Below are positions 745-62,572 of a stretch of 64,000 nt of DNA, one piece after another. Position 1 is the first letter of the stretch, and each line of letters starts with the position of its first letter. The notes below the pieces were generated by a model that saw nothing but the letters and a program-made list of their open reading frames with translations, was not told where the DNA came from and made no database searches. Source of the DNA: Mesostigma viride (taxonomy: Eukaryota; Streptophyta; Mesostigmatophyceae; Mesostigmatales; Mesostigmataceae); the NCBI GenBank assembly GCA_009746045.1, contig RPFO01000213.1, positions 12,696,063-12,760,062 of the forward strand, written 5' to 3'. Position numbers and translations under genes: made by a program.

Positions 745-3700
745 CCGAGTTGATGGCAGGCGCCGAGAAGTCACGCAGCTTGATCCAGAAGGAGGGCAGG
801 AAGCCGCAGTAGAAGAGGCCAAAGATGGTCGACGTGACATGCTCCTGGCGGGGCACCGTCTCCGTCTGTGCGGCACGGTGGACAGGTGGGGTGTGGAGGT
901 AGAGGGCGGAGGTAGGGGTTGTAGGTAAGGTGTGGGGAGGTAGGGTGTATGGCGGATGCATTGAGGCTTGTCCCGATGAGGCAGATCACATCGATGTATG
1001 TGGTGCTTAAGTGAAGCCAGAAGCCACGAAAGAGAGGCTACCCGTTTCTAGTTTCTAGCGCCACATAATATTCCTACCTGCATCATCCAGGATATGTGTT
1101 CACCAAGGATGCCTGGATGCCGCATCCGTCGACTGGAGATCTCGAATTTCTTCCCTCCCAAACTCTCCATGATCGCACCCTATGCGTTTCTGCGACCCTC
1201 GTATCGCTTTGACGATGCATAAAGAAAATGTCCCTCCCTCCCTCCCTCCCTCCCTCCCTCCCTCCCTCCCTCCCTCCCTCCCTCCTCCCTCCCTCCCTCC
1301 CTCCCTCCCTCCCTCCCTCCCTCCCTCCCTCCCTCCCTCCCTCCCTCCCTCCCTCCCTCCCTCCCTCCCCTCCCTCCCTCCCTCCTCCCTCCCTCCCTCC
1401 CTCCCTCCCTCCCTCCCTCCCTCCCTCCCTCCCTCCCTCCCTCCCTCGCTCCCTCCCTTCTCCCTCCCTCGCTCCCTGCCTCCCTCCCTCCCTCCCTGCC
1501 TCCCTCCCTCCCCCTCACACAAGCAGCTCAGTATACAATAACATCATCATGAGCAACCGTCATTGTTAAAATATGTTTTGAAATTCCTGCAGCTGCGACA
1601 CGCAGACCAGCAGGAAGGCCATCATGTGCTCATCTAGGCATTGCTGAAATGTATTCATAGATGCCCACCTTTGCAGCAGCGACACGCAGACCAGCAGGAA
1701 GGCCATCATGTGCTCATCTAGGCATTGCTGAAATGTATTAATAGATGCCCACCTTTTGCAGCAGCGACAAGCCGACCGGCAGGACGGCCACCATGTGCTA
1801 ATCCAGTAATTGCTAAAATGTATTTATAGATGCCCACCTTTTGCAGCAGCGACAAGCCGACCGGCAGGACGGCCACCATGTGCTAATCCAGTAATTGCTA
1901 AAATGTATTTATAGATGCCCACCTTTTGCAGCAGCGACACGCAGACCAGCAGGAAGGCCATCATGGCGAAGATGCCCCCCACGTTCATGCGCGCGGCGCT
2001 GCGCGCGGCCAAAGGGGAGAGTATCCCCGGGGGGGTGGGGTAGAAGGCAAAATGGGAACGGCAGACGTGTGCAAAACAGGCGCAAAAGTGAGTCACCTCC
2101 TAACATACTTATCATTTGCACTCGGAACATGCTCATCATACCATGTCGTCTGACACGCTATGATATAAAGAATTTTGTTCGCAGAGAATCACCGAAGGGC
2201 GGGGTGGTGGTGGTGGTGGTTACGGAGGGGTAGGGCCTACGAGGTGGTCGGTGGCCATTTCAACTGCTGGCAGGTGCATGTGTCTGGCGGCAGTGGCAGT
2301 CAGGCAGTCAGGTGGCGTGGTGGTGACAACGTGTTCGGTGGTGACCATGTGGTCGGCGGGGAGAGGAATGTGTGCTGGGGAAGGGCGAAGAGGGACCACC
2401 GCTCTGTGCGTGTGCGTGCGTGAATTCGCTCGAATGCCAAACAAATTGATCCTTGCTGCTGGCTGCTAGGAACCGATGGGTGGGGTGGGGTGGGGTGTCG
2501 TGTGGTGTGACCTGGGGCACTAGCCACCATGGGCATTTGTTTGGACAACACAAAACGATGCGGGCGGGGAGGGGTGGGCCAAGGTGGGCTGCAGTACTTG
2601 GGACGGGCGACAGAAGTAACAAGGGATTTGCTCGTGACACTGAAGCACTGACGTTCATTTAACAAGGCAAGAAGATTTGCGACATTGCTCCTACACACAT
2701 AGGAACGCGCACACGCACACATAGTAACCATGACAGCGATTATCATTATTTAGCTAGTAGCCCATCAACACCTCAATCATCTAAGCTAGCTAGGAGATGT
2801 ATTAGGGGTACTACTCGCAACATAGCATGCTAAGCAATGTACTAAGGATACAACAAGCACTCTGTGATACGTACTAGGGATACTAGCACTCTCAAGCTAC
2901 CATGGTCCAGATTCTCGACATTTCTTCCACACCATGGTCACTAAAGTATAGTAATGCCAAGCCTGCGCTGGTTGCCTCATAGATACTACTAGCACGCCAA
3001 AAGGTTTACCAGATATGCATCTGCACCAACAGCACGCTAAGGCATAAAAGAGTCATACTCATGCGACCCCACCAGCACGCACGAGATATTGGGGGGCAAC
3101 ACTACCACGGTAACACACACAAGAGATGCACATCGATGCGACCGCATGCAAAGAGATATGTGGGCGCAGCACCGCCAGTTCCTGGTTTTCTATGTAGCCC
3201 ATCAGACTCCGTTAGCGTTTCTTTCTTGTCCGTGCAAGCACCAATCACCTCGGCACCGTTCCGATAGAGGAGAAGGTCATAATCAACAGCAGCGCGCATC
3301 ACCATCAATAAATACTGTGGGTTTTAAAATGTCATCGTAGTAAATTTCATGAATTAGCTGCATGCTTCCAAATCCATGAACCACAAGAACGCTGAGCACT
3401 GAGGCTCCACACAGCCTCAAAAGGGCTGTGTGCTGTGACAGGTGGCACGTGCGGAGTCAACCTTTGGCTGCAGGGGGCAGCTATTTCAGTGCCAGTACGC
3501 ATCGGTGTCACTACCATGATTCATCGGTCAGTGAGAAATCGGACCGTCCACGTGGGGCTTGTCTTCAAGCCGTGAGAAACGGCTGCATCGCCTTTGCCCC
3601 CTTTTCCTTTCCAATCAAGCAGAGATCGAACGTATCTACTTGAACACATTGCACCCCGTGACTCTTTCAACAAAGGCATGCAAAGGAATTGGTAATGCCT

Positions 3701-4644
3701 GAAATTCTTGGAAATTGTTAGAAGTGCTGGATATTAGTCTAAAAGGTGCCTCCCGTAAAGAGGCTACAGAGCACCAACTACAGCACCAACCAGGGACTAC
3801 AGATGCCTCTGCAATAATGCTTGGAAAACTCACATGGTCACGAACGGCAGGCAGACGTTCAGGGCCACGGTGAGGTCAATGACACCCTTGGGGGGCAGCT
3901 TCTTCCTCTTCTTCTTGAAACCCTCCAGATAAAAGTACTCATGTGTTGCGAAGTATATGGCCACGGCCACCGTGCAGGTAAAAACCCAGCTGCCAAGCAT
4001 CAGAACGCCCGCCGCCATCGCGCCCAGTATTGTGCCGTATACAATGCGGTTCGTCAGGTTGGTAGCCGCCGACTCCGCTGCGGGCTTCGCAGCGGCATCG
4101 CCTCCCGTGGCCTCTTGCGCAGGCTGGGAGTCCTTGTTACCCAAATCGACATCCGACGCTGCCTGCAGCCGAAAGAATGGCAGACCGAGCGAGGTTATTC
4201 TAAGTGCAGTGCTGTTGACAATAAGCAAGAATTCCAAGGTGGTCGTTCCTAACCTTGGTGACGTAGCAAGCACCTTAACGTGGATAGGCACAACAGCAGA
4301 GTCAATGGACAAGTGATTGCTAGTAAATACGAAGCCACACAGCAGATTATATCGACCTTTGTGATTTGCATTTGCCGTCGGGTGATTGGCCTAGCTGATA
4401 GGCCCGAAAACATTGGCAGGGATGGTCGGTGTCGCTCCAAAAACAATGTGTCTGTAATTCGATTATGTGAAGGCGCGATGTTAACAGTCGCCCTCAAGTG
4501 AGCACGTTTTTGCAACGCAGGAAGCCCCAATCTACAAGCCGGCGAGGAGGTAAGACGAGTATGGCTAATCACTTGCCCATTGACCAACCCGCGCCCTAGA
4601 GATGCTTCCAGGCGGTCCGCCGCCAGTGCCATATTGACCGCCAT
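745..4644 (-). CDS. Plastid-type phosphatidate cytidylyltransferase (CDP-diacylglycerol synthase), 5' part, four exons
   Basis: The family makes CDP-diacylglycerol from phosphatidate and CTP for phosphatidylglycerol synthesis in plastid membranes. Proposed exons on the minus strand: 4644-4357 (tentative donor), 4162-3834, 1998-1923 and 865-745; phases join as 0, 2, 0 and 1. Exon 1 starts at ATG 4644 and encodes about 96 residues rich in R, S and A with few acidic residues, as in a transit peptide. Exon 2 carries [14 protein letters not shown], a hydrophobic stretch and [10 protein letters not shown]. Exon 3 is a membrane segment ending SLLQK. Exon 4 carries [20 protein letters not shown], very close to plant CDS4/CDS5 proteins. 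The catalytic C-terminal part, with the cytidylyltransferase signature, must lie left of position 1. The single base added by exon 3 completes an Ile codon, which supports the join. Intron 3 holds copies of the exon 3 end. The family call is firm; the exon 1 donor is uncertain. Confidence 0.85.
1231..1515. repeat. (CCCT)n microsatellite in intron 3
   Basis: About 70 units of TCCC with occasional interruptions, lying between exons 3 and 4 of the cytidylyltransferase gene. On the coding strand it reads as a polypurine GGGA tract. Long reading frames across it are artefacts of the repeat. Confidence 0.95.
1584..1966 (-). repeat. Tandem copies of an exon end plus 5' splice site (84-85 bp period)
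   Basis: On the minus strand the last ~43 nt of exon 3, the donor GTGGGC and ~40 nt of intron are repeated. The genuine donor GT is at 1922-1921. Further intact GT copies lie at 1837-1836, 1752-1751 and 1668-1667, and a fourth, degraded copy near 1586 has lost the donor. Spacing is 85, 85 and 84 bp. The copies nearest and farthest from the exon share one variant (CTGGTCTGCGTGTC) and the middle two another (CCGGTCGGCTTGTC), which indicates successive duplication. Confidence 0.9.
1999..3833 (-). other. Intron 2 of the cytidylyltransferase gene
   Basis: The 1.8 kb between proposed exons 2 and 3 starts with GTGAGT and ends in GCGCAG. Apart from short G/T-rich stretches around 2200-2500 and a degenerate relic near 2900-2970 of the CTGGCCTGCGCTGGTTGTCT-type repeat seen elsewhere, I see nothing coding in it. 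Confidence 0.6.
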
Positions 4645-5707: not shown

Positions 5708-7981
5708 ATGGGACAGAGAGCCAGGGCCAAGGCAGTGACCGAGGAAGTCAAGCGGGCTGGTGGGACCTCGTTGGATGCTCTGCTGGCACTGCTGTCCCAG
5801 GCCATCATTGGCCCGCCATGCCCTACCCCAGTCTGCGACGACAAGCATCATCTCCAGCAAATTCGGCTCCTGAGCAATTCCTTGGATAAGATAATGGCCG
5901 AGGAGCGGTCGATGAGAACCTCCCGGTCCCCGAAATTGCCCCAGCGCAAGCAGGATATCCAGGCCAGCACCACCACCACGGAAGTCGACAGCGGCGCCGA
6001 GGCCCGGTTCGCCAAGCTCGTAGAGTGGCTGGAGCAGAATGGCGCCCGCCTTCAGGGGGCCAAGATCACCGGCGGCCTCCCGGAAGGCGCCGGCGTGATT
6101 GCGCTGGAGGACATCAAGCAAGGGAGCTTCGTCGCGTCCGTCCCTCTGAGCTGCATGATGTCCACCAGCACCGCCGTGACGGATTACCGTATCCTGAGCC
6201 TGCTGCAGCAGGACCAGCTGCTGCAGATGGTTTCCTCCCTGCTCCTCGTGCTCCACCTTCTGTTTGAGAAACACGCCCCCCTGGGCCGCCCTGGCGAGCC
6301 CGGCCCGCCCCAATCCTTCTGGAAGCCGTACATCGACGCGCTCCCCCCCCATGAGGCCGCTGCCCCGGCCGGCACCGAGAAACGTCGCTCCCACCGCCCC
6401 GATTTCGCACTCCCCCTCTTCTACTCGGATGAGGCGCTCCACCTGCTGACGGGCACCGGGTACCTGCACGAGATCCACACCCACTGGCTGGACTTTGTGC
6501 GGCAGTACGTGCACCTGCTGGGCCTGCTGCGCGCCATGCGCCAGGATGACGGCCAGGGTGGGCTCAAGCCCCTTGACATCTCCTGGTTCACGTTTGAGCA
6601 GTACCGCTGGGCGGTCTCGGTCGTCATGTCCCGCCAGAACGAGCTGCTGATCCCCATCGTCCCTGGGGACGCCGCGTCCGCTAGCGACCCTTGCTGCGAC
6701 GGGAGCGGGCATGCACACGGGCATGGGCACGCGCACGGAGATAAGAATATCTCCTCATGTGGCCATTCGCACGGCCAAGACCATGGGCACTCCCACGGGC
6801 ATGACCATGGGCACTCCCACGGGCATGACCACGGGCACTCGCACGGCCACGGTTCGTGTGGGCATTCGCACGGGCATGACCATGGGCATTCGCACGGGCA
6901 TGACCATGGGCACTCCCATGGGCATGGAGATGCGCATGGCCATGGGCATCATGACCACGAGCATGGTCCAGGGCACTCGTGCTCCGACCCCCCCCCAACC
7001 CACAGCCGGCGGCTGGCCCTCATCCCATTGTTCGACCTGTTCAACCACGAGGCCGGTGACGTCACCAGCACGTTCGACGCGTCCGACATGACCATGAGCG
7101 TGACGGCCAAGCGCGACTTCCGTGCGGGCGACCAGGTATATATCTGCTATGGTCCTCGGACCAACGTGCAGCTCTTAAAGTACTCTGGCTTCGTGCCGCG
7201 CGGAAACCCGTATAATGCCATCTGCCTGCCCACCCTGGTGGATACGGGCGACCCCCTGTACAGGAACAAGATGGCCACCCTGCAGGCGCTCGAGCGGGCG
7301 GGGGCGCTCCAAGGTGGCCCCCCGTTCACACGTCGCGAGATGCTCGTGTATGGCGACGGCAGGGTGTCACCGCAGCTCGCCACCTGGCTTCGCGTGGTGG
7401 CCACGGGGCCCGACGGCGCCGCGCGGCTCTCGGATATCCTGAGGGACTCGCTCACGATCAAGCCAGGGGCGGGGCCGAAACCGGGGGTAAGCTTGCCACC
7501 AGCCGACGGCGCGAGTGGGGTGATCAAGATGGTGGATGGTGGGAATGGGAGTGCGGGCAATGCTGGCGGTGGTGGTGGTGGTGAGGGAGGAAAGAACGAG
7601 GAGGTTGGCAATGCTGCCTGTGATCACAGAGGTGGCGAGTGCGGACATGTAGAGGGAGCGGCGCCAGGGAGGGCAGGGGGTGACGGCGGAACGCCGGCGG
7701 ATGTTGTGGAATGGCAGGGATCGATGGATGAGCTGGAGTTCCTGGCAGCCAAATGCCAGTCGCGACTAGAGAACCAGTTTGCCCGCTGGTACGTCAAACC
7801 GGGCGCCGGTGGGGCGGCGGCCGCGGCGGCAGGGGGTGGTGTCAAGGCATGGAGTGGGGATGACGAGGATGCCGTGGATTGTGCGGTGGTGGCGGCATTC
7901 TGTGAGGAGGAGGTGCGGACGCTGCAACGGTTTGTGGACATGCATGCGCGGGCGGTTGCCAGGACAGGTGCCGTGGGCTGA
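5708..7981 (+). CDS. SETD3-like SET-domain methyltransferase with a His-rich insertion
   Basis: Intronless 757-residue protein. SETD3 is the actin-histidine N-methyltransferase; this is a homologue by domain order and motifs. The ATG is supported by an N-terminus (MGQRARAK) resembling the family's MGxxxRxK start. Then follow an N-terminal helix region (to about 95), the SET domain with [12 protein letters not shown] (about 125), [27 protein letters not shown] (N311), [12 protein letters not shown] (438-447) and YICYGPRTN (Y481), and the C-terminal Rubisco-LSMT-type domain to about 750. Residues ~313-430 are an insertion dominated by an eight-residue HGHDHGHS repeat, placed between RQNE and LALIP where human SETD3 has only a short loop. 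A second Gly-rich insertion sits at about 595-675. The Trp that follows PL in human SETD3 is Phe442 here. It is divergent from the cytidylyltransferase gene. The substrate could be actin His or another protein. Confidence 0.88.
6706..6985 (+). repeat. 24-bp coding repeat for His-Gly-Asp/Ser insertion
   Basis: In-frame repeats of roughly GGGCATGACCATGGGCACTC within the SETD3-like gene, encoding H-G-H-D-H-G-H-S units. About half the residues are His, a composition known from metal-binding segments of other proteins. All units keep frame. Confidence 0.9.
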
Positions 7982-18684: not shown

Positions 18685-21600
18685 ATGACAATGGGTTCGG
18701 GTGACGTCGATGCCACCTCGACAGCTCTCAGTCTTGCGGAGGAGGTCATCGCCTCGTCGCTCATGCTCCCATACCTTGGCTGGCGCGAGATCGCGGCGCT
18801 CTCCTGCGTCTGCAAGTCCTTTAACGAACGGCTTCTCGGCCATGACACCACAGGGTCCTGGAAAGCCCTCTGCGAGAACTTCGCGCGGGAAAAGGGACTA
18901 TACGCGCCGAGCCGCTCCCACGACTGGAAGGCCCTCTTCTGGGACATGCTGTGGCCGTCCCGCGGCAAATGGCTTGGCGCCGACTCGGCCGCGAACGGTC
19001 AGGGATTCAAAATCAACGTCGCTGTCCGTTTCCGTCCCGCGCGCGACGACAACGAGGACGTCGGCAGGGATTTTGTCCTCCCCCTGCACCAGCGGCTCAA
19101 GCTGCTCCAGAAAGGCGAGCAGCTGAGCATGGCCAGCGCCGGCGTCGGCGGCGACCAGGTCATCCGGCTCCTGAACGGATCTGGCGATGACGGCGGCGAG
19201 ATCCCGCCCGAGGTGTTGGCGGCGCTCCAAGAGGCAGGACAGCTGGCGCATGTGGCGGCACGTGCCGAGGAGGAAGCCGCCCGTGCAAATGGGAGCCGCC
19301 GCGGCAGGTTTGATGCCAGTGGGGACGACCTCCCTGGCGCAAACGGCCAGGGCGACGATCAGGAAGGGCTGTCGGGGGTCCCTGACGCGCTGGCCAGGGT
19401 CCAGGTGGCCGATGGGGAGGGAGTTGCCGGCGGCCAGCAGAACGGACGGGGGCGAGGTGGTACAGGGGATGATGATGACGATAGTGAGGAGGGGAGTAGC
19501 CATTGGAGGGGCATGTCGAGGAAATGTGGCGCGCCTCGGGTGCTGGCGCTGAGCCCCTCGCGCGTGGTCATGTTCGTGCCAGGTGTCGGCATCCGGCCGT
19601 TCCAATATGGCCGCGTGTTCAGACCAGACGCGTCGCAGCTGGACGTGTTTGACGCGTTGCGGGGCACCGTGCTGGCGGCCGTGAATGGGTTCAATGCCGC
19701 GCTCCTGTGCTATGGTCAGACGGGGAGCGGGAAGACCCACACGCTCTACGGGCCCACGGGAGCGCTCGATGACGTCGCAGAGCGGGCGCGCTCACGTCAG
19801 CGGTACCTGGAGCACGCGGCCGCTGACGTCAGCCAGGCGCCCCCCCCCCTCCCTGATTCGGTCGGGCTCGTCCTGCGCATGATCGAGGAGCTATTCGTAG
19901 CGGCGGACGCGCTCGCCGCGCGCGACGGCACGCGGACAACTGTCACGATGCAATACGTCGAGGTGTACCAGGAGAGGATCTCGGACCTGCTGGGGGGCGG
20001 GCGCAAGGTCATTCTCAGGGAGCGGTCGGGTGACGAAGGGGGTGATTACATCGCTGCGGCGGGCAGGGATGCCAGGAGCTACCGGCCACGTGCGCCCCGT
20101 TTTGTGCTCCAGGGTGCGTTGGAGGCTCCGATATGCTGCCTTGGGGATGCCGTGGAGAGGTTGGGTGACGGGGAGAAGCTCAAGAGGTTTGCGGCGACAG
20201 CGATGAACGAGCGGTCCTCCCGCGCGCACACGGTGCTGGTGCTGCACATCGTCCAGACATCCCAGGGTGGTGGGGTGGGGCCGATGCCTGAGGGGGGAGG
20301 GGATGAGGACATGTTTGAAGGCGGGGCAGGGGGTGGGAGGGTTACAGGCGGGAGGGCTTCGCAGGATGACGGTGAGGAGAGGGGTGGTGGCGAGCGCGTG
20401 GCGGGTGTTCCTGTGGATGGCCGTCATGGAGGGCATGTTGATTATGGGGATGCCGATCCCGGGCATGGGCGCCATGGTGGGCCTATTCATGGTGGCCATG
20501 GTGGCCCTATTCATGGTGGCCATGCTGGTGATCCTGCGCATGCCCTTGGTGGACATGCCCATGGTGAGCCTGCCCAAGATGGGGATGTCAAGCGTGGGCA
20601 CGGTGTGGGCGAGGGCGCTAGCGCTGGCCGTCATCGACCGCCGGTGTGCGTGCGCAGCGAGCTCACGCTGGTCGACCTGGCAGGGTGCGAGCACTTGAAG
20701 CTATCCAAGGTGCGCGCGGGCGAGCAGCTGCGGGAGACGATATCAATAAATAGCTCGCTCCTCGTGCTGGGCAAGTGCATCACGGCGCTGGTGGAGGAGC
20801 GGCAGCACGTTCCCTACTACGAGTCCACGCTCACGCAGGTGGGCCCCTTTCGTTTAGTAGTACTAAATATTTGTTTTTCTTTATATAATATTTAGTAGTA
20901 TATTGTCGTCAGAAAGCAACAAACGTGAAAAGGCTAGCTGCCTGAATCTGAGATTCCACAGAACACAGAAGATATGGAAGATTGTATCGAAGCAACCAGC
21001 AAGGAATCGAACATAGGACCTTCGGCATAATTTCGCGGCTGTGTGAGTCTCCTGATCCGAAGGCATCTCACTTAACGTTTTGAAACAGCCCAACTGCGCA
21101 GAGGGGTGCCCCTCTTTACCGCAGAGGGGTGCCAATATGTCCGATATTGCTGAATCTATAGAAGGTGACTCACCAATAGAGCTTCGTGCGCAGAAGTACT
21201 AACGAGTATGCACTTAATAATACTATTTAATAATATCAATATTCAATATTTAGTTATTTCAATATTTAATAAAAATAAAGAAAGAAAAATAATATAATTT
21301 TCTACACACACGTTTGATGCGTGTGTGTAGAAGAGGGTCACACCAAAGACAGGTGCTGAGGGTGGAATGAATCGGTAGCCACGCGCCCTACTAGGGGTCC
21401 ACGATCACGCGGGCAGCTTTCTTTGGCAGGGTAGATATATAGTTCTATCACTTTCTATGGCAGGGTAGATATATAGTTCTATTACTAGTAGATATATATA
21501 GTTCTATTACTTCCCTGATTCTCCCAATTTCTGGCCTGGGCTGCTTGTCTCCTTGATATCACTGTGTAGTAAGAAGGAGATCTTTGTGCTGTTTGATGGT

Positions 21601-30355: not shown

Positions 30356-31416
30356 CGTGCTTATTGTTTATAATTATTATGATCATGAACCTGCCTTATT
30401 GCCAGCATGTGTTCAGCTAGACTGTGGCCACTTTTGGTGCCGTGATGCTACAGTCATACCGTTGGCAGCCATTTTCCGTTTTCCTCAAGCGCTGGAATGC
30501 ACAACTTCTCCATACTTATCCCGCCCGGCATGTCAGTGACCGTTCCCCAGGTATAGAACACTTCATGGCTTATTCATACTTGCTGGTTTGGGGCAGCGTA
30601 TTTGCTTCTATCACCAGCAGCGCTTCACCTGACACTTTCGTTTGACTGCAGAGCCCCAACGTGATGCCTTGGCGTTGGCGGTGGTCCTCAAGCGCGTACT
30701 GTCTGAAGGACAGTATCATGGTATGACATTGGTAAGCTTTTGCGTTTGGTTTTGGCAGAGCTCTTGCCAGCAGCCGGGGCAGAATAGCAGCAGTATTGTC
30801 AATACCTGTTCTTATGCTTGCTCAACACGATAAATCATGTAGTCTGTTTCTCTGATGAAGACATTGGTTGGCAGTCGTATCAATAGTGTTGCCTGCAATT
30901 TTCCCAGACCGGATACGCCTGTATGGTTGGCGATTACGGTTACTAGCATTTCTTCTTAGAGCCCGGGAGTCATGTTGAGATCAAGGTGACTAATGTGACA
31001 TTGCTTTCTCTTTGCTAATGTTACTAGGGTTGTGGTGCCGGGATGCTGCATGTTGCTAACTGAGAAAAGCAGGATTCGTCCTTCAGAAAGAGACTAATAT
31101 GACAGCAGGTAATATCTAGCACATCATCGTTCCCTTAGTGAACTCGTTGCATGTATACATCCTGCTTCCACGCTTGCTTCCTTGCTTTTGGTTGCTGGCT
31201 GGCCGGCCGGCTGGTTGGCGTGTATTGCTTGTTCCCATAAACATTTGTATACGTACACGCACGCTCATGTTGTCATGCACGCACAAGACCGCACCAAAGC
31301 AACCAACCAATGTAACAAGCTCCCATATCCCATGGTCATGACTCCCCACCCTACCCAACAGCTGCACCTCATGCCCACTGCTTACACCATGGTTGTCATG
31401 CCAAACTGCTGCCATG

Positions 31417-32219
31417 GCCGTCATGGCTGTCGTTGCTGTCGTGGCTGTCGTGGCTGTCGTGGCTGTCGTGGCTGTCGTGGCTGTCGTGGCTGTCGTGGCT
31501 GTCGTGGCTGTCGTGGCTGTCGTGGCTGTCGTGGCTGTCGTGGCTGTCGTGGCTGTCGTGGCTGTCGTGGCTGTCGTGGCTGTCGTGGCTGTCGTGGCTG
31601 TCGTGGCTGTCGTGGCTGTCGTGGCTGTCGTGGCTGTCGTGGCTGTCGTGGCTGTCGTGGCTGTCGTGGCTGTCGTGGCTGTCGTGGCTGTCGTGGCTGT
31701 CGTGGCTGTCGTGGCTGTCGTGGCTGTCGTGGCTGTCGTGGCTGTCGTGGCTGTCGTGGCTGTCGTGGCTGTCGTGGCTGTCGTGGCTGTCGTGGCTGTC
31801 GTGGCTGTCGTGGCTGTCGTGGCTGTCGTGGCTGTCGTGGCTGTCGTGGCTGTCGTGGCTGTCGTGGCTGTCGTGGCTGTCGTGGCTGTCGTGGCTGTCG
31901 TGGCTGTCGTGGCTGTCGTGGCTGTCGTGGCTGTCGTGGCTGTCGTGGCTGTCGTGGCTGTCGTGGCTGTCGTGGCTGTCGTGGCTGTCGTGGCTGTCGT
32001 GGCTGTCGTGGCTGTCGTGGCTGTCGTGGCTGTCGTGGCTGTCGTGGCTGTCGTGGCTGTCGTGGCTGTCGTGGTTGTCGTGGCTGTCGTGGCTGTCGTG
32101 GCTGTCGTGGCTGTCGCGGCTGTCGCGGCTGTCGTGGCTGTCGTGGCTGTCGTGGCTGTCGTGGCTGTCGTGGCTGTCGTGGCTGTCGTGGCTGTCGTGG
32201 CTGTCATGGCTGTCATGGC
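31417..32219. repeat. 9-bp minisatellite GTGGCTGTC, ~88 units
   Basis: Nearly homogeneous array; the few variants are GTGGTTGTC, GCGGCTGTC and, at the right end, ATGGCTGTC. Because 9 is divisible by 3, every frame on both strands is open; none is a gene. Confidence 0.97.
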
Positions 32220-32584
32220 CGTCTTGGCAATTGCCAGGGGAACTCGGTGAGTGCCAGTTCAAGATGCTCGAGGGCAAGTGGGCTAGGGCGTTTGGCAATG
32301 CGCACGCAGGTGCATGCCGGACACTTGTTCTTTGTAACGTAGTACAGGCAGTGCAGACGGGCTGGACATGCAAATACTTGCTGTCCTTAGCAAGTGGCCA
32401 GCCCAAGCAAGATGCACATGCATGCAACCCATCACTGTGTGTAATGTCTTGTATCCACACTCCGTAGGTACCTGGCATGCACATGGTCTGAACTTGCAGA
32501 ATTTCACTCCAACAACATGTGGCTGGCAGCAAGCATTGAGGTAACTGCAACTGTAAATCTGTAACGACTAATCTCACGCATCCA

Positions 32585-34888: not shown

Positions 34889-35512
34889 CAAAGGGAGTCA
34901 TGGCAGTCATGACAGCCATGACAGCCAAGACAGCAAGGACAGCCATGAAAGCTGAAAGCCATGACAGCAAGGACAGCCAAGACAGCACAAGGACAGCCGC
35001 AATGGCCATGACAGCCATGACAGCCATGACAGCCATGACAGCCATGACAGCCATGACAGCCATGACAACCATGACAGCCATGACAGCCATGACAGCAAGG
35101 ACAGCAAGGACAGCCATGAAAGCTGACAGCCATGACAGCCATGACAGCCATGACAGCCATGACAGCCATGACAGCCATGAAAGCTGAAAGCCATGACAGC
35201 CATGACAGCCATGACAGCCATGACAGCCATGACAGCCATGACAGCCATGACAGCCATGACAGCCATGACAGCCATGACAGCCATGACAGCCATGACAGCC
35301 ATGACAGCCATGACAGCCATGACAGCCATGACAGCCATGACAGCCATGACAGCCATGACAGCCATGACAGCCATGACAGCCATGACAGCCATGACAGCCA
35401 TGACAGCCATGACAGCCATGACAGCCATGACAGCCATGAAAGCTGAAAGCCATGACAGCAAGGACAGCCAAGACAGCACAAGGACAGCCGCAATGGCCAT
35501 GGCGGCAATGAC
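34889..35512. repeat. 9-bp minisatellite CATGACAGC, inverted relative to the first array
   Basis: About 65 units with higher-order interruptions (AAGCTGAAAGC, AAGGACAGC). Its reverse complement, GCTGTCATG, equals the 31417 array unit GCTGTCGTG except for one CpG-to-CpA change. Confidence 0.96.
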
Positions 35513-49493: not shown

Positions 49494-52222
49494 GACGAAC
49501 GCCGCCTCCCACCCGCTGGTCACGCGAGTATTCATGTTCTTTTCTAACTCCAAGTTGATCAGAGATACGGACCACCTCCAGTGGATTCGTGCCCTGGCCC
49601 GTGAAAATCTGGACATCAACTGATGGGTCAAGGGAGAACACATACGTAATCACATCTGGCTGGTAGAACTAGAGGGCGAAAGTCCACATTACGCCGAATC
49701 TGGCGACCACCTCAGTCAACCCATGATGCAGCAGCTGTGTGCATGAAATATCCTGATGATGTGAGTGGCCTTAACCCCTCCTTGCCTTGGGTTGCCATGG
49801 CCACCTACAGTCACCTATAAATAGCCACTTAGAGCCACCTCCAGCCACAAAAAAAAAGGCACTTGGAGCCACCTACAGCCACCAATAAATAGCCACTTAG
49901 AGCCACCTACTTAGCCACCTGGTCGCATCGGCTTGGTTGCAGGGTAACAATGACCGCCGACACCATGCATACGACGGCCAGCAACAAGATACCGTGTCCT
50001 TCACACGCAAGACTAACGACCAATAACATTAGGGATGATGATGATCAGAGTCATCGTGCATTATGTGGGATGGTGCATTATGTTCACAGGCAGTTTGCTC
50101 CCTACACCCACCCCACAATAAACTACTGCATGCCCCCTCCTCCTACATGCCTCCCCATACCACATGCCCCCTTCTCAAGCCCAGGCTTATGGTGGGCGAA
50201 CGCGATAAACATTACGCCGGTAATCCATATACACGACTATCAACCATGTCAACTTGTGTAAATCATCTCCAGGACTGCCAACAGGACCCTATCTATAGTA
50301 TTCTAGACCCCTATCTACGCAATTCCGGACTCACCCCTTTAAATACAGTTCCACACTCACCTTGGCGCGTCCATACATAAAAACCCACACTCACCCTGGT
50401 GCATCCAAACCGTTTGCCAACGCCGGCACTCGCCCTCGCACCGCAGGGTCACTCCCCGCCCCCATCCGCGTCCCCGCCACCTGGCGCCCATCCCCTTCCC
50501 CCTCCCCTCCTCTCGCCCACTCTGCTTCCCGACCCCCTTTCGCTCCTCTGGCCCCTTCCTCTCCTCTCCCCCCCTCCCCCCCCCGGCCCCACTCCCCCTC
50601 CTCCTCAGACCCTGACTCGAGCGAAGATATCCCCTGCAGCGCGATCGTCCCAAGGGAGGGCGCGGTCGCCAGCGGCGCCTTCTTCTTGCGGCCGACACGA
50701 GGGCCCGCCGGCACCTCCCCGGAGGAGTCAAGTGGCCACGTCTCGGACGAATCAAATGACCGAATGTCAGAGGAATCGATCAATGTGCGGGGCCCCTGCA
50801 TTGTTCCTTCCTCTCTCGACAACTCGTTACCACGGCCCCCCGGCGCAAACCCCCCTGGTGATCCGCCCCTCCTCTGGCCGCCCCCCTGGCCACGTCCCTG
50901 GCCGTGCCCCGCTCCTCCCGGCCCTTGCCGCGGCCCTTGCCACTCCCCCCCCCTTGCGATGACGATGGGTCCCTGTCCAAGGCATCCAAAAGCAGGTCCC
51001 TGTCGCGGCTGCGCTCCCCCAGGGGCCGCCTGGGCCTTCCGTCCCTGGTAACCTCGCCCCCGGCATCCTTCCTCCTCTCCTTATCCTGTCCCCCGTCACC
51101 AAGCTCCCTCCGATCCAAGGCGTTATAGAGCTCTCGACCATCCCTCACATCGCTACCCTGGAGATCGGCACGCACAGGTAGGCTGCTCGCGTGCTGCAGG
51201 TCTGCGACCTTTATGCGCGCAGCCCCCCCCTGGCTGCCCTCGTTGATCACCCCCAAGAGCTTCTTATGCTGGCGCGCTTGCTCGCTCTCCTCAAGCTGCC
51301 GCTCCAGGTCGGCGTTCTTGCGCTCGATCGCCGTCAGCTGGGCCTTGAGCGCGCGCAGCTCGCTGTCCAGGGACCCTCCCTAGGGGTTCGTGTAGGGTTG
51401 GGCAATGGGGTTAATGGGGGCGGGCGGATGGGTGGGCGGGCAGGCGAGCGGGCGGGCGGGCGGGTGGGTGGGTGGGTGGGTGGGTGGGTGGGTGGGTGGG
51501 TGGGTGGGTGGGTGGGTGGGTGGGTGGGTGGGTGGTGGGTGGGTGGGTGGGTGGGTGGGTGGGTGGGTGGTGGGTGGGTGGGTGGGTGGGTGGTGGGTGG
51601 GTGGGTGGGTGGGTGGGTGGGTGGGTGGGTGGGTGGGCGGGCGGGCAGGCGGGTGGGTTAGGTGTGGGGGAAGGGCGTTAGGTCGACATCCGAGGTGTCA
51701 AAGGGGGGGGGGGATCAGGGAAGGGGAGGATACGGTCAAGATTTGGCCAATGTTACCAAAACAATAGACCCATTTAGAACACTTCGTGGGTGTACTACAA
51801 GCTCGAATTGAAAAGGTTGGAAATAGGCAGAATCAACGTACACTAAGGATGGAAAACAAGGAATCCAGAATCGCTGATACAAGGCTAGACTTTTCAAATA
51901 ATAACATGAAAGATAAGGATTCAAAACACATCGACATAGTCGCATTCCTTTTTAATCCACGAACTGCCAAATGAATCAATGTATTGCTAGTTGTCTCTTT
52001 GGTAGTGCCAAAACCTGAGACCAATCGTGACAAATGACAGCATGAAAGCTGCCATGGGAAACAGTAACTGTGTTGGGTAGCTTGATTTCCAGTGATAGTA
52101 TCTGTATGAAGAGCCGCTTGATTGAGAACAGCAATACAAGCAAAGGACTGCGCACATCTTTACGACTTGATCATAGTCACACAAGTAAGAAGAAGTTATA
52201 CTAGGATACACGATTCCTTCCC

Positions 52223-52261
<39 letters not shown>

Positions 52262-55200
52262 GTATATGAAAGAGCTAGGTTGCTTTACTTGCCAGGGTTC
52301 TGCTTGGTTGCCAGGGTTCTGTGCTGTAATTGACAGGGCTCTTCCTGTTTCGGACTTGGCCATTATTAAAAACAGTAATGTACCTTAACTTGCGTTACCC
52401 CCCCCATAGCACATACGACATTCCCAAAAGTCTCAAGAACTGTATATTGGGCGCACACAACACAAACTAGGGAAAGCCCTACCTTCGTCCCCCGACCAGT
52501 CATCCTCCCCCTGAACCCCTAGTACATATTGTAACGAAATACAGCAGCGCCCTTGCTGCCCTACCTCGCCCTCCGACCAGTCATCCTCCCCCTGAACCCC
52601 TAGTACATATTGTAACGAAACACAGCAGCGCCCTTGCTGCCCTACCTCGCCCCCCGACCAGTCATCCTCCCCCTGAACCCCTAGTACATATTGTAACGAA
52701 ATACAGCAGCGCCCTTGCTGCCCTACCTCGCCCCCCGACCAGTCATCCTCCCCCTGAGCCCCTAGTACATATTGTAACGAAATACAGCAGCGCCCTTACT
52801 GCCCTACCTCGCCCTCCGGCCAGTCATCCTCCCCCTGAACCCCTCGTACATATTGTAACGAAATACAGCAGCGCCCTTACTGCCCTACCTCGCCCCCCGA
52901 CCAGTCATCCTCCCCCTACATATTGTAACGAAACACAGCAGCGCCCTTGCTGCCCTACCTCGCCCTCCGACCAGTCATCCTCCCCCTGAACCCCTAGTAC
53001 ATATTGTAACGAAATACAGCAGCGCCCTTACTGCCCTACCTCGCCCTCCGACCAGTCATCCTCCCCCTGAACCCCTAGTACATATTGTAACGAAATATAG
53101 CAGCGCCCTTACTGCCCTACCTCGCCCCCGACCAGTCATCCTCCCCCTGAACCCCTAGTACATATTGTAACGAAATATAGCAGCGCCCTTACTGCCCTAC
53201 CTCGCCCTCCGACCAGTCATCCTCCCCCTGAACCCCTAGTACATATTGTAACGAAATACAGCAGCGCCCTTACTGCCCTACCTCGCCCTCCGACCAGTCA
53301 TCCTCCCCCTGAACCCCTAGTACATATTGTAACGAAACACAGCAGCGCCCTTACTGCCCTACCTCGCCCCCCGACCAGTCATCCTCCCCCTACATATTGT
53401 AACGAAATACAGCAGCGCCCTTACTGCCCTACCTCGCCCCCGACCAGTCATCCTCCCCCTACATATTGTAACGAAACACAGCAGCGCCCTTGCTGCCCTA
53501 CCTCGCCCTCCGACCAGTCATCCTCCCCCTGAACCCCTAGTACATATTGTAACGAAATACAGCAGCGCCCTTACTGCCCTACCTCGCCCCCCGACCAGTC
53601 ATCCTCCCCCTGAACCCCTAGTACATATTGTAACGAAACACAGCAGCGCCCTTACTGCCCTACCTCGCCCTCCGACCAGTCATCCTCCCCCTGAACCCCT
53701 AGTACATATTGTAACGAAACACAGCAGCGCCCTTACTGCCCTACCTCGCCCTCCGACCAGTCATCCTCCCCCTGAACCCCTCGTACATATTGTAACGAAA
53801 TATAGCAGCGCCCTTACTGCCCTACCTCGCCCCCCGACCAGTCATCCTCCCCTGAACCCCTAGTACATATTGTAACGAAATACAGCAGCGCCCTTACTGC
53901 CCTACCTCGCCCTCCGACCAGTCATCCTCCCCCTGAGCCCCTAGTACATATTGTAACGAAATACAGCAGCGCCCTTGCTGCCCTACCTCGCCCTCCGACC
54001 AGTCATCCTCCCCCTGAACCCCTAGTACATATTGTAACGAAATACAGCAGCGCCCTTGCTGCCCTACCTCGCCCTCCGGCCAGTCATCCTCCCCCTGAAC
54101 CCCTAGTACATATTGTAACGAAATATAGCAGCGCCCTTGCTGCCCTACCTCGCCCTCCGACCAGTCATCCTCCCCCTGAACCCCTAGTACATATTGTAAC
54201 GAAATACAGCAGCGCCCTTGCTGCCCTACCTCGCCCTCCGACCAGTCATCCTCCCCCTGAACCCCTAGTACATATTGTAACGAAATATAGCAGCGCCCTT
54301 GCTGCCCTACCTCGCCCTCCGGCCAGTCATCCTCCCCTGAACCCCTAGTACATATTGTAACGAAATATAGCAGCGCCCTTACTGCCCTACCTCGCCCTCC
54401 GACCAGTCATCCTCCCCCTGAACCCCTAGTACATATTGTAACGAAATATAGCAGCGCCCTTGCTGCCCTACCTCGCCCTCCGACCAGTCATCCTCCCCCT
54501 GAACCCCTAGTACATATTGTAACGAAATACAGCAGCGCCCTTGCTGCCCTACCTCGCCCTCCGACCAGTCATCCTCCCCCTGAACCCCTAGTACATATTG
54601 TAACGAAATATAGCAGCGCCCTTGCTGCCCTACCTCGCCCTCCGGCCAGTCATCCTCCCCCTGAACCCCTAGTACATATTGTAACGAAATATAGCAGCGC
54701 CCTTGCTGCCCTACCTCGCCCTCCGGCCAGTCATCCTCCCCCTGAACCCCTAGTACATATTGTAACGAAATATAGCAGCGCCCTTGCTGCCCTACCTCGC
54801 CCCCGACCAGTCATCCTCCCCCTGAACCCCTCGTACATATTGTAACGAAATATAGCAGCGCCCATACTGCCCTACCTCGCCCCCGACCAGTCATCCTCCC
54901 CCTGAACCCCTAGTACATATTGTAACGAAACACAGCAGCGCCCTTGCTGCCCTACCTCGCCCTCCGGCCAGTCATCCTCCCCCTGAACCCCTAGTACATA
55001 TTGTAACGAAACACAGCAGCGCCCTTACTGCCCTACCTCGCCCCCCGACCAGTCATCCTCCCCCTGAACCCCTAGTACATATTGTAACGAAATATAGCAG
55101 CGCCCTTACTGCCCTACCTCGCCCTCCGACCAGTCATCCTCCCCCTGAACCCCTAGTACATATTGTAACGAAATACAGCAGCGCCCTTACTGCCCTACCT

Positions 55201-57909
55201 CGCCCTCCGGCCAGTCATCCTCCCCTACATATTGTAACGAAATATAGCAGCGCCCTTGCTGCCCTACCTCGCCCTCCGACCAGTCATCCTCCCCCTACAT
55301 ATTGTAACGAAATATAGCAGCGCCCTTGCTGCCCTACCTCGCCCTCCGACCAGTCATCCTCCCCCTGAACCCCTAGTACATATTGTAACGAAATATAGCA
55401 GCGCCCTTGCTGCCCTACCTCGCCCTCCGACCAGTCATCCTCCCCCTACATATTGTAACGAAATATAGCAGCGCCCTTGCTGCCCTACCTCGCCCTCCGA
55501 CCAGTCATCCTCCCCCTGAACCCCTAGTACATATTGTAACGAAATATAGCAGCGCCCTTGCTGCCCTACCTCGCCCTCCGACCAGTCATCCTCCCCCTGA
55601 ACCCCTAGTACATATTGTAACGAAATATAGCAGCGCCCTTACTGCCCTACCTCGCCCTCCGACCAGTCATCCTCCCCCTGAACCCCTAGTACATATTGTA
55701 ACGAAATACAGCAGCGCCCTTACTGCCCTACCTCGCCCTCCGGCCAGTCATCCTCCCCCTACATATTGTAACGAAATATAGCAGCGCCCTTACTGCCCTA
55801 CCTCGCCCTCCGACCAGTCATCCTCCCCCTACATATTGTAACGAAATATAGCAGCGCCCTTGCTGCCCTACCTCGCCCTCCGACCAGTCATCCTCCCCCT
55901 GAACCCCTAGTACATATTGTAACGAAACACAGCAGCGCCCTTGCTGCCCTACCTCGCCCTCCGACCAGTCATCCTCCCCCTGAACCCCTAGTACATATTG
56001 TAACGAAATACAGCAGCGCCCTTACTGCCCTACCTCGCCCTCCGACCAGTCATCCTCCCCCTGAACCCCTAGTACATATTGTAACGAAATACAGCAGCGC
56101 CCTTGCTGCCCTACCTCGCCCTCCGACCAGTCATCCTCCCCCTGAACCCCTAGTACATATTGTAACGAAACACAGCAGCGCCCTTACTGCCCTACCTCGC
56201 CCCCGACCAGTCATCCTCCCCCTGAACCCCTAGTACATATTGTAACGAAATACAGCAGCGCCCTTGCTGCCCTACCTCGCCCCCGACCAGTCATCCTCCC
56301 CCTGAACCCCTCGTACATATTGTAACGAAATACAGCAGCGCCCTTACTGCCCTACCTCGCCCCCCGACCAGTCATCCTCCCCCTGAACCCCTAGTACATA
56401 TTGTAACGAAATATAGCAGCGCCCTTACTGCCCTACCTCGCCCCCCGACCAGTCATCCTCCCCCTGAACCCCTAGTACATATTGTAACGAAATACAGCAG
56501 CGCCCTTACTGCCCTACCTCGCCCCCCGACCAGTCATCCTCCCCCTGAACCCCTAGTACATATTGTAACGAAATACAGCAGCGCCCTTGCTGCCCTACCT
56601 CGCCCCCCGACCAGTCATCCTCCCCCTGAACCCCTAGTACATATTGTAACGAAATATAGCAGCGCCCTTGCTGCCCTACCTCGCCCCCCGACCAGTCATC
56701 CTCCCCCTGAACCCCTAGTACATATTGTAACGAAATATAGCAGCGCCCTTGCTGCCCTACCTCGCCCTCCGACCAGTCATCCTCCCCCTGAACCCCTAGT
56801 ACATATTGTAACGAAACACAGCAGCGCCCTTACTGCCCTACCTCGCCCTCCGGCCAGTCATCCTCCTCCTCCCGCCCCCCTCTGCCCTCCGCCTCGTCGC
56901 GCCAGCGCCGCAGCTCCTCATGAACGCTGTCGTCGGACGTGACCACCGAGCTGTCCTCATAATCCTCCCACTCGTCACCCAGGTCCAGCGACCCAAGCAG
57001 GGGCCGGCTGCCAGCATTATCTCCACCATGTTCGCCCCCACCATGCTCGCGCGCTTCCCCCGCATGCTTCCCCTCAACGTCCAGGCCAGGCTTTGCAGGG
57101 GCGGCCCCTCGGCTATAGGGATCACATTCCATATTTCTAACCCCCGTCTCACCATGTCTACCCAAGCCATGTCGGCCGGCGTCGCCATGCCGGTCTGATC
57201 GCGTCCCCCCATCACGCCCCCCACGGATTTTCCCGTGATTAGAACCAACACCCCCGCCACCCCGGGGGGCATCATCCACCCCGGCAGGGCCACCGGCAGC
57301 CCTCCCCCCCGCACGCGTAGCATCCGCACGGGAATCAGCCTTGCCAAGCACGGCCCCTGAGCGGTCGGGGCTCGTACTTCTGGCCCCCGTGCCCGGCACA
57401 GGGCCGGACTCTTCCTGCGGCAAATAACTTGTCCTTGGAGGATCCCTGTCTCCGGCGACCCCAACCAGTCCGCCTTGGTCCGGCTCGCCCTCGCTCGAGG
57501 ACAGAAAGTCGCTGCTGTCGGCCGCCATGTCATCATCCGGGTGCTCGTGGGCGTCGGCCGCCCCTAGCTCAAACGCCTGCACCTCTCTGGGCGGCCGGTG
57601 GTGCTGCCGGCGCTCCGCGGCGCCTCGGAAGGGTCGATTCCGGTCCAGCCACGTGTCCTGCGGCCCCAGGGTCGAGCCTCGCCGGCTTGCTCGGTCGACA
57701 TCCATGGGAGGGGAGGTTTTCCCCTTGGAAGCTGGCCTCGACACGTGGCTGGTCTCTGGGGCCACGTTGCTCGTTTCCCTGCCAAGGAGGGGCATCGCAG
57801 GAGGAGGCGACATTAGAGGTTCCGACAAATCCTGGCGGGCAGCGCTGGAGGCTTTTTGTCGGGACGTTTTCGACAGGGCTTGCAGCGAGGTAGCCCCGCG
57901 CGCAACCAT
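43415..57909 (-). CDS. SCD2-like coiled-coil protein, five proposed exons over 14.5 kb
   Basis: Homologue of plant SCD2 (STOMATAL CYTOKINESIS DEFECTIVE 2), a coiled-coil protein acting with SCD1 in clathrin-linked trafficking during cytokinesis. Exons: 57909-56842 (ATG 57909; acidic disordered region ending [10 protein letters not shown]), 51379-~50611 (coiled coil [20 protein letters not shown]), 48732-48559 (ends [12 protein letters not shown]), 47347-46354 ([56 protein letters not shown]) and 44530-43415 ([33 protein letters not shown], Ser-rich tail). The CWLARYW and GIEPDIAE joins match plant SCD2 exactly in phase. Exon 2 needs one extra base at the C9 tract 50945-50953 to stay open and to give the phase required by exon 3; its donor is tentative. 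The product would be ~1370 residues, over twice plant SCD2, the excess being disordered sequence. Introns are packed with tandem arrays. Confidence 0.78.
44758..45298. repeat. 31-bp minisatellite in last intron of SCD2-like gene
   Basis: About 17 units of CCACAGGTTGATAGAGGAAC plus CTTGATAGTAG. Variants alternate TTGAT, TTAAT and TCGAT. Units are contiguous with no unique spacers. Confidence 0.95.
45350..45490. repeat. 39-bp tandem repeat, about four units
   Basis: GCAGGCCAGAAGCTTGCACA followed by CGCTCCCATTATACATATG. Same intron as the 31-bp array. Confidence 0.93.
45797..46040. repeat. 22-bp tandem repeat, about eleven units
   Basis: AGTGAAACAAATACTAGAATGT units, nearly identical. Same intron. 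Confidence 0.95.
46190..46330. repeat. ~44-51 bp tandem repeat, three units
   Basis: CGAAACATGTATAACTATTA followed by CTAACACTA and a variable TGTATGTTACTGA end. It lies just downstream of the 46354 donor on the minus strand but does not include exon sequence. Confidence 0.85.
47455..47705. repeat. 33-bp tandem repeat next to an acceptor
   Basis: About seven units of GAAAGAAGGCACCGAGGCGT followed by GTCATGGGAGGGT. On the coding strand each unit supplies a CTTCTTTCACCCTCCC pyrimidine run, 110-350 nt upstream of the 47347 exon. Confidence 0.93.
49137..49492. repeat. (CA)n microsatellite with GCGCGC interruptions
   Basis: About 355 bp of CA repeat with alternating purine-pyrimidine GCGCGCGC blocks, inside intron 2 of the SCD2-like gene. 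Confidence 0.97.
51440..51655. repeat. (GGTG)n microsatellite upstream of exon 2 acceptor
   Basis: GGGT tetranucleotide repeat with several one-base slips. On the coding strand it is a CCCA pyrimidine-rich tract ending 60 nt before the exon 2 acceptor of the SCD2-like gene. Confidence 0.95.
52226..52266. repeat. (AT)n microsatellite
   Basis: Short TA repeat within intron 1 of the SCD2-like gene. Confidence 0.9.
52480..56870 (-). repeat. ~55 tandem copies of exon 1 end plus 5' splice site, 81-bp unit
   Basis: Counting GTAACGAAA on the plus strand gives 55 units. On the coding (minus) strand each unit carries GGATGACTGGTCGGAGGGCG + AG, the end of exon 1 (which has GGCCGG in place of GGTCGG), then donor GTAGGGCAG and ~50 nt of intron. 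Spacing is 81 bp; several shorter units lack GAACCCCTAGT. The genuine donor is at 56841-56840 and the next copy at 56760-56759. Units vary at a few sites only (CAG/TAG, CAA/TAA, CCC/CTC/CGG), so the array is young or homogenised. Confidence 0.95.

Positions 57910-59052: not shown

Positions 59053-62572
<3,520 letters not shown>

Follow-up and report, generated by a model that had tools for sequence, protein, structure and literature searches.

The choice of a 5' splice site is usually studied with few competing sites. Many similar sites are created by introner elements, which are dispersed copies of one sequence, and tandem duplication of microexons is known from the schistosome micro-exon genes and from collagen-like exon repeats. 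In recursive splicing, a ratchet point does not have to look like the exon upstream of it. Introns are known to arise by tandem duplication over an AG/GT site; PMC4974935 gives as cases ATP2A1, fission yeast SPOG_01682 and SOCG_00815, and the potato RdRp, and in the fission yeast genes the introns span a 24-bp segment present in four and in two tandem copies. In this intron-gain model, a duplicated AG/GT supplies splice sites whose use need not alter the mRNA. Here we analyze a stretch of 64,000 nt from Mesostigma viride (C1:12696063-12760062 of the 439.9-Mb assembly, C1 being contig RPFO01000213.1), which we call the window and whose coordinates are used wherever no other label is given. In one of its genes, presumably SCD2-like, the intron after exon 1 holds 55 tandem copies of the end of that exon together with its GTAGGG donor.

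The array and its surroundings comprise the following features (a slash within a motif marks a splice junction).

56842..57909, minus strand: SCD2-like exon 1 (putative start), ending with the donor GAG/GTAGGG
56836..56841, minus strand: first GTAGGG donor of exon 1, presumably the one in use; U1 duplex -9.8 kcal/mol
52476..56870, minus strand: array of 55 units, repeating the exon end and the GTAGGG donor
52483..52510, minus strand: last and most diverged exon-like copy of the array (28 nt, phase 1)
50783..51379, minus strand: next SCD2-like coding exon (candidate 3' end), with the acceptor CCCCTAG/GGAG/GG

Tandem Repeats Finder assigned the array a period of 81, 55.4 copies and 94% matches over 52476-56870, in agreement with a first-pass annotation of the sequence, which had reported about 55 copies of an 81-bp unit carrying the exon end and the donor. 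The units were cut at GTAGGGC, from the first donor (intron base 1 at 56841) to the last (52482); 39 of the 55 are 81 bp long, and the others measure 80 bp (7 units), 70 bp (6), 69 bp (2) or 82 bp (1). Each unit consists of an intron-like part, GTAGGG...TTCAG, of 54 nt (43 nt in 8/55), followed by an exon-like piece, whose most frequent form, GGGGAGGATGACTGGTCGGAGGGCGAG (28/55 units), is translated in frame as GEDDWSEGE. GT starts all 55 units by construction of the cut, an AG stands immediately 5' of the exon-like piece in 55/55, and AG/GT is found at all 55 unit starts. The exon-like piece is 27 nt long in 45/55 units, where it is also in phase 0 and free of stop codons, 26 nt long in 9/55 and 28 nt long in 1/55. 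An in-frame TAA occurs within the intron-like part of 26/55 units, the first unit included, so that retention of unit 1 combined with the use of a later donor would give a truncated protein. The local alignment of the exon end with the intron scored 53, against a maximum of 33 over 1000 shuffles. There are 31 distinct sequences among the 55 units, with shared variants, and adjacent units are more similar than under shuffled order (lag 1, z -3.4). Diversity over the 39 full units is alike in the exon-like (0.022) and intron-like (0.028) parts.

When exon 1 and the exon at 51379 are joined, the reading frame continues without a stop, and the pairing of the first donor with U1 is similar to that of the donors of nine other exons (range for the ten, -5.1 to -11.6 kcal/mol), which upholds the annotated exon boundary at 56842. 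The best gene model from the sequence ends exon 1 there, and the first donor, with intron base 1 at 56841, would be the one used. If the last exon-like copy were spliced to the next exon's second AG, the frame would likewise be kept. About 1.1 kb of the intron (52475 to 51380) lies outside the array, which suggests that the intron may be an older one. For the SCD2-like pieces Pfam gave no family above its cut-off (exon 1 had one match below it, with E 0.0093), and a PDB sequence search with the protein gave nothing better than E 0.29. Within SCD2-like exon 2 (50783-51379, on to 50394), the reading frame shifts in a G-rich stretch; an intron may have gone unrecognised there, or the assembly may have a homopolymer indel.

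How does this locus compare with the described systems? Like a minisatellite, or variable-number tandem repeat, it consists of head-to-tail units with variants, and 81 bp falls within the range of such tandem units (about 10-100 bp); unlike one, its unit spans a splice donor and takes in coding sequence, and the exon end itself serves as the first partial copy. Relative to the AG/GT intron-gain model, the AG/GT here belongs to an existing exon end and donor and the copies lie within an existing intron; there is one locus with 55 copies, and a one-sided recurrence in 14/49 sampled introns, as described below. As at the ratchet points of recursive splicing, every array copy offers an AG/GT at which splicing would regenerate the donor. 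Introners share with our case the many similar splice sites, but each intron here echoes its own exon and the dispersal of introners is lacking: in a genome search with the exon and the array start, which passes over highly frequent words and limits scoring to the top candidates, 26/26 matches listed were at the array locus and no copy at a second locus was among them. An introner or another mobile element was rejected as the origin on this basis. Elsewhere in the window, matches to the array unit were no longer than 10-11 bases, none with an E better than 1.9; Rfam had 0 matches in the window and viral contigs had 0 matches to a repeat pattern.

The array represents the extreme case within a broader pattern, which the first-pass annotation had overlooked along with the AG before every exon-like piece. 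We use the term echo for a copy of an exon end, mostly with a donor-like site, in the intron that follows that exon. At ten donors in the window, the final 45 nt of the exon were compared with the following intron (up to 1500 nt) and with 1000 shuffles. A significant same-strand copy was found at 5/10 donors, each with p 0.001, the floor of 1000 shuffles: those of the SCD2-like exon, a CdsA-like exon, two Tim44-like exons and a kinesin exon. In the same test, exon starts compared with the preceding intron gave 0/10 significant copies, and mid-exon stretches gave 0/30 at 0.01, with one at 0.033. The joined exon models of the five echo-bearing cases are open, and those of Tim44, the kinesin and the CTP-transferase have backing from Pfam. 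The first-pass annotation had claimed three smaller cases for the window, unnamed; four were found here, with exon ends at 1923, 60685, 61492 and 20838.

1923..1998, minus strand: CTP-transferase (CdsA)-like exon, ending CTGCAAAAG/GTGGGC (PF01148, 2.2e-6)
1588..1965, minus strand: 85-bp array with about 4.5 copies of the CdsA-like exon end, donor and intron start
60455..60685, plus strand: Tim44-like exon, ending GACATGCAG/GTGAGG (PF04280 in the joined protein, 7.2e-34)
60802..61049, plus strand: three diverged echoes of the 60685 exon end, ending at 60831, 60928 and 61049 (+146, +243 and +364)
61295..61492, plus strand: Tim44-like exon, ending CAGGGGCAG/GTGCGG
61579..61737, plus strand: two echoes of the 61492 exon end, the first ending at 61615 and followed by GTAAGA, the second within about 61689-61737
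18691..20838, plus strand: kinesin exon, ending CTCACGCAG/GTGGGC, with the next exon from 22283 (PF00225, 9.1e-61)
21361..21413, plus strand: decayed echo of the kinesin exon end, its donor lost

At 50340-50410, GGATGCACCAGGGTGAGTGTGG is followed about 36 nt on by ATGGACGCGCCAAGGTGAGTGTGG; this is likely a further donor echo, although it did not pass the formal test.

The comparison was extended to 49 donors: the ten of the window, 15 from a second region of 200 kb at C1:2.0-2.2 Mb (10.5 Mb from the window), four of a calreticulin-like gene adjoining the window and, from three CCT genes found with PF00118, 20 more. The last 30 exon nt were compared with the first 1 kb of their own and of all other introns, and the 99th percentile of the cross-intron scores served as the threshold. 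The own-intron score exceeded it at 15/49 donors, or 14 without one CAG microsatellite (B3975). Exon starts exceeded it in 2/49 cases (CCTb_3290 with score 28 and B64094 with score 24) and mid-exons in 0/49, and the reverse strand scored above 22 in 0/49. The difference between the donor and acceptor sides, 14/48 against 2/48, has a Fisher p of 0.0018. By set, echoes were found at 5/10 donors in the window, 3/15 in the 2-Mb region, 0/4 in the calreticulin-like gene and 6/20 in the CCT genes. The mechanism put forward in the first-pass annotation, one that repeatedly duplicates DNA across exon-intron boundaries, is supported insofar as exon ends recur in introns at other loci, but the copies are one-sided (donors 14/49, acceptors 2/49).

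The composition of this sample bears on these counts. The ten window donors were picked after echoes had already been noticed at some of them. The 15 donors of the 2-Mb region belong to gene-finder exons of three gene-like stretches, with presumed transposon frames and an acceptor at 6951 excluded. The calreticulin boundaries and the donors of CCTa_e2, CCTa_e3, CCTb_e1 and CCTb_e5 were placed manually according to the expected continuity of the protein. Inspection by eye before the test had already shown echoes at CCTa_e3, CCTb_e1 and CCTb_e5, so that two of the six CCT positives were pre-seen and the other four were not. CCTb_e1 and B32597, with echoes visible by eye that stayed below the threshold, were counted as misses, as was SCD2_e2, which was entered one base before a GGT. 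CdsA_eb was used without a mapped acceptor, and its exon-start row is a placeholder.

In the 2-Mb region, echoes at three donors (p 0.002-0.004) fall in one gene, which we take from the way its exons read to encode a HAC/CBP-type acetyltransferase; one of its introns contains six diverged copies in a 58-68-nt register.

C1:2,010,001-2,020,000: HAC/CBP-like gene, with echo-bearing donors at C1:2,012,485, 2,014,462 and 2,015,551

A further young array of exon end and donor, AAGTTGAGAGCCAAG/GTGCGT with 48-bp spacing, is present in a presumably CCT gamma-like gene (L035, about 4,280-4,400), where the gene finder took the array as exon. The CCT-family exons at C1641:60944-67934 and C887:341605-349664 include three pairs with identical match scores; these contigs are perhaps two haplotypes.

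Is the exon end copied more often than its surroundings? In 25 introns we counted 30-nt windows with a nearby downstream copy: 34/192 (17.7%) at the exon end, 112/645 (17.4%) at +15..+150, 171/1385 (12.3%) at +150..+500, 963/2924 (32.9%, SCD2 array included) beyond, and 0/587 inside exons. The exon end is thus duplicated at about the rate of the surrounding intron. In the mirror test at the acceptors of 24 introns, 2/190 windows at exon starts and 30/501 (6.0%) at -150..-15 had copies, as did 8/580 inside exons, all eight from one gene. Counted per intron, a nearby copy was found in 0/46-48 for the exon bins -120 to -60, 2/48 at -40, 12/48 at -20, 20/48 in the donor bin 0, 17/47 at +20, 9-12/44-46 at +40 to +120 and 2-8/33-46 beyond. 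The acceptor-side bins gave 1/47 at the exon start, 3/47 at -20 and 0-3/46-47 further into the exon.

Tandem Repeats Finder assigns 20% of the 200-kb sample to tandem repeats, whatever their period, and repeats that lack exon ends are common in these regions. Several large arrays at C1:2,173,084-2,188,829 (L026-L027), with up to about 211 copies, are built from a 29-30-bp unit, GTATTTATGCATGCCAGCACCCCCCCTAG, which resembles a minute GT...CCCCCCCTAG intron with AG/GT at each junction. A 40-bp unit, GTATGTACGTGTGTGTGCAGCCGCCCCTTGCGTGCGCGGT, forms several separate arrays over about 58 kb at C1:2,102,238-2,160,055 (L019-L025). The window itself has 9-bp arrays at 31415-32228 (TGGCTGTCG, 90 copies) and 34899-35477 (CATGACAGC, 65 copies), about 2.7 kb apart, which are nearly reverse complements and open in several frames.

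We next describe the shape of the echoes. Among the best echoes of the 14 introns, as aligned, the copied exon end is followed by GT in 9, by GC in 3 and by neither in 2, where the copy is shifted by an indel; 12/14 have G at +5. Homology starts 18-38 nt inside the exon in ten of the 14 (the three young arrays and CCTa_e3 are not included). With a gap-tolerant alignment, applied to 12 of the 14 echoes since two were too short, a homologous intron flank was detected behind the donor in 6/12, two of the six being young arrays; at CCTa_3599 the homology resumes across a large gap. About half of the echoes thus clearly look like tandem duplications of whole units whose intron parts have decayed. 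The stop codon that the CCTb_1635 echo carries in the frame of its exon, the loss of GT in 5/14 best echoes as aligned, the 10/55 array pieces that are not 27 nt long, the in-frame TAA of 26/55 units and the similar diversity of exon-like and intron-like parts point to neutral decay.

Taking these results together, we consider it fairly probable that a local tandem duplication over the exon 1 donor seeded the array, which is then a minisatellite, in a genome with frequent intron duplication that is tolerated across 5' splice sites. The introns of this genome would undergo frequent local tandem duplication, and a duplication spanning a 5' splice site would carry the exon end and the donor into the intron. 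Such an event would be nearly neutral for splicing, because the first donor would still yield the correct mRNA, and splicing of the exon to an AG/GT copy would re-create an identical exon end and donor. If an acceptor and exon start were copied upstream, splicing would meet an incorrect acceptor first, and such a duplication would be purged. Tolerance at the donor and purging at the acceptor would lead to exon-end echoes being kept and exon-start echoes being lost. The duplication in the SCD2-like gene would then have been amplified to 55 copies by unequal exchange or slippage. The first-pass annotation had known of no described element that acts in this way; since near-tandem duplications are abundant in the sampled introns and AG/GT duplication has been described (PMC4974935), no new element is required. 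A process directed at 5' splice sites might add to tandem duplication.

Several results weigh against this explanation. The CCT and calreticulin-like donors alone give 6/24 against 1/24 exon starts (Fisher p 0.097). The donor peak counted per intron, 20/48, is roughly double the values of the bins from +40 on (2/39 to 12/44), an excess that neutral duplication by itself would not call for. In the neutral simulation, which allowed small indels only and took the best echo per intron, homology ended at +2 to +16 past the donor in 9/10 simulated echoes, where neutral medians were +60 to +80, and these 9/10 were at P<=0.07; the simulation omitted the young arrays SCD2_e1, CdsA_eb and CCTb_e5, all of which have homologous flanks, and CCTa_e3 fell under its limits. 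Even with the gap-tolerant alignment, 6/12 flanks were without significant homology. In addition, we infer the use of the first donor, neutrality, purging on the acceptor side and the mechanism of expansion from one assembly.

One rival is a process that is itself directed at 5' splice sites and would, at transcribed exon-intron junctions, preferentially copy the exon end and the donor into the intron. It might involve R-loops where intron starts are G-rich, repair that has stalled, or the copying of a stretch presumed to be bound by the spliceosome, about 30 exon nt and about 8 intron nt. Besides the peak of copies at the donor and the blocks from -18..-38 to +2..+16, which are shorter than in the neutral simulation, it is favored by the echo of CCTb_1635, where 37/41 block positions are identical without detectable similarity in the flanks, and by the G-richness of the array, whose sense strand has 61 runs of at least three G per kb and lacks equivalent runs of C. 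The claim that short copying is proven by the strict neutral simulation had to be weakened once the gap-tolerant alignment revealed flank homology in 6/12 echoes. The near equality of exon-end windows with those at +15..+150, and the tandem repeats without exon ends in the same regions, also speak against a directed process, as do intron starts that are G-rich at only some of the echo-bearing donors. The donor peak is in part a detection bias, since the source exon is conserved on one side and the best echo was chosen per intron. We regard a directed process as unlikely. It is unlikely as well, if worth entertaining, that junctions are preferred sites for copying about 20-40 nt of exon end with the donor, that many introns begin with a graveyard of their own donors and that splicing ignores from one to dozens of near-perfect decoys.

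Alternatively, the array could be a chain of microexons, each unit a 27-nt in-frame exon with a 54-nt intron, encoding a protein with a variable repeat number. In the first-pass annotation, the cell chooses one donor among dozens of near-identical ones; with the candidate acceptor AG in each unit, this is one of three possible splicing routes. As in tandem microexon genes, short in-frame exon-like pieces alternate with short intron-like pieces. The microexon reading is also favored by the AG before every piece, by the length, phase and open frame that 45/55 pieces have, and by a simple gene finder, which parses the array as a chain of 27-nt exons and 54-nt introns. Unlike in those genes, the frame-keeping length fails in 10/55 pieces (nine of 26 nt and one of 28 nt) and the acceptor signal appears weak, with a pyrimidine share of 0.44 before the unit AG against 0.61-0.89 in ten window acceptors. 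The introns would also be 43-54 nt long, compared with at least 136 nt in 47 other introns (at least 589 nt in the window), a self-chosen set that consists partly of gene-finder calls. Moreover, the same gene finder read CCT echoes as exon, where the known CCT protein sequence presumably runs on without them. Piece length, acceptor strength and intron length led us to reject the microexon chain as the main reading, and we consider it improbable.

It also seems improbable that the echoes are under selection as useful extra donors or as AG/GT steps of recursive splicing. Their donors do score 3.30 with the donor matrix, close to the 3.68 of real donors and far from the -1.52 of all intronic GT, and the six copies in the 58-68-nt register of the HAC/CBP-like intron agree at 0.75-0.81 over -10..+6, 0.53 over -20..-11 and 0.27-0.33 elsewhere. 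However, this contrast among the six copies is inflated by their having been picked on similarity, GT or AG is lost in several echoes, and the exon-like parts of the array contain frameshifts and one CCT echo a stop. An assembly artefact is very improbable: copy number is easily misassembled in long arrays of near-identical units, but the 31 distinct units with shared variants, and the same pattern in low-copy and diverged form at other loci, argue against it.

Three further ideas were dropped. RNA structure as a cause was set aside after 270 nt from the array start gave z -3.59 but 90 nt around the first donor gave z -0.70; in the folding of the ten donor regions, only that of kinesin stands out (z -4.66). 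A G-quadruplex was discarded, as a loose pattern found 0 four-run motifs in the array despite its many G-runs. Coding on the plus strand, raised by long open frames there, was rejected because these are split into several frames along the array.

In literature titles and the openings of abstracts, whose coverage is incomplete and does not prove absence, we found no description of exon-end echoes. Gene finders are at risk from them, as echoes were turned into exons here. The contigs C1641 and C887, if they are haplotypes, could reveal polymorphic copy number of echoes. Introns of this genome in which 2 to 56 donors share one exon context offer a natural test of the choice among near-identical donors. 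Finally, copying on the donor side only suggests a rule for which intron duplications are tolerated, and hence for how introns lengthen.

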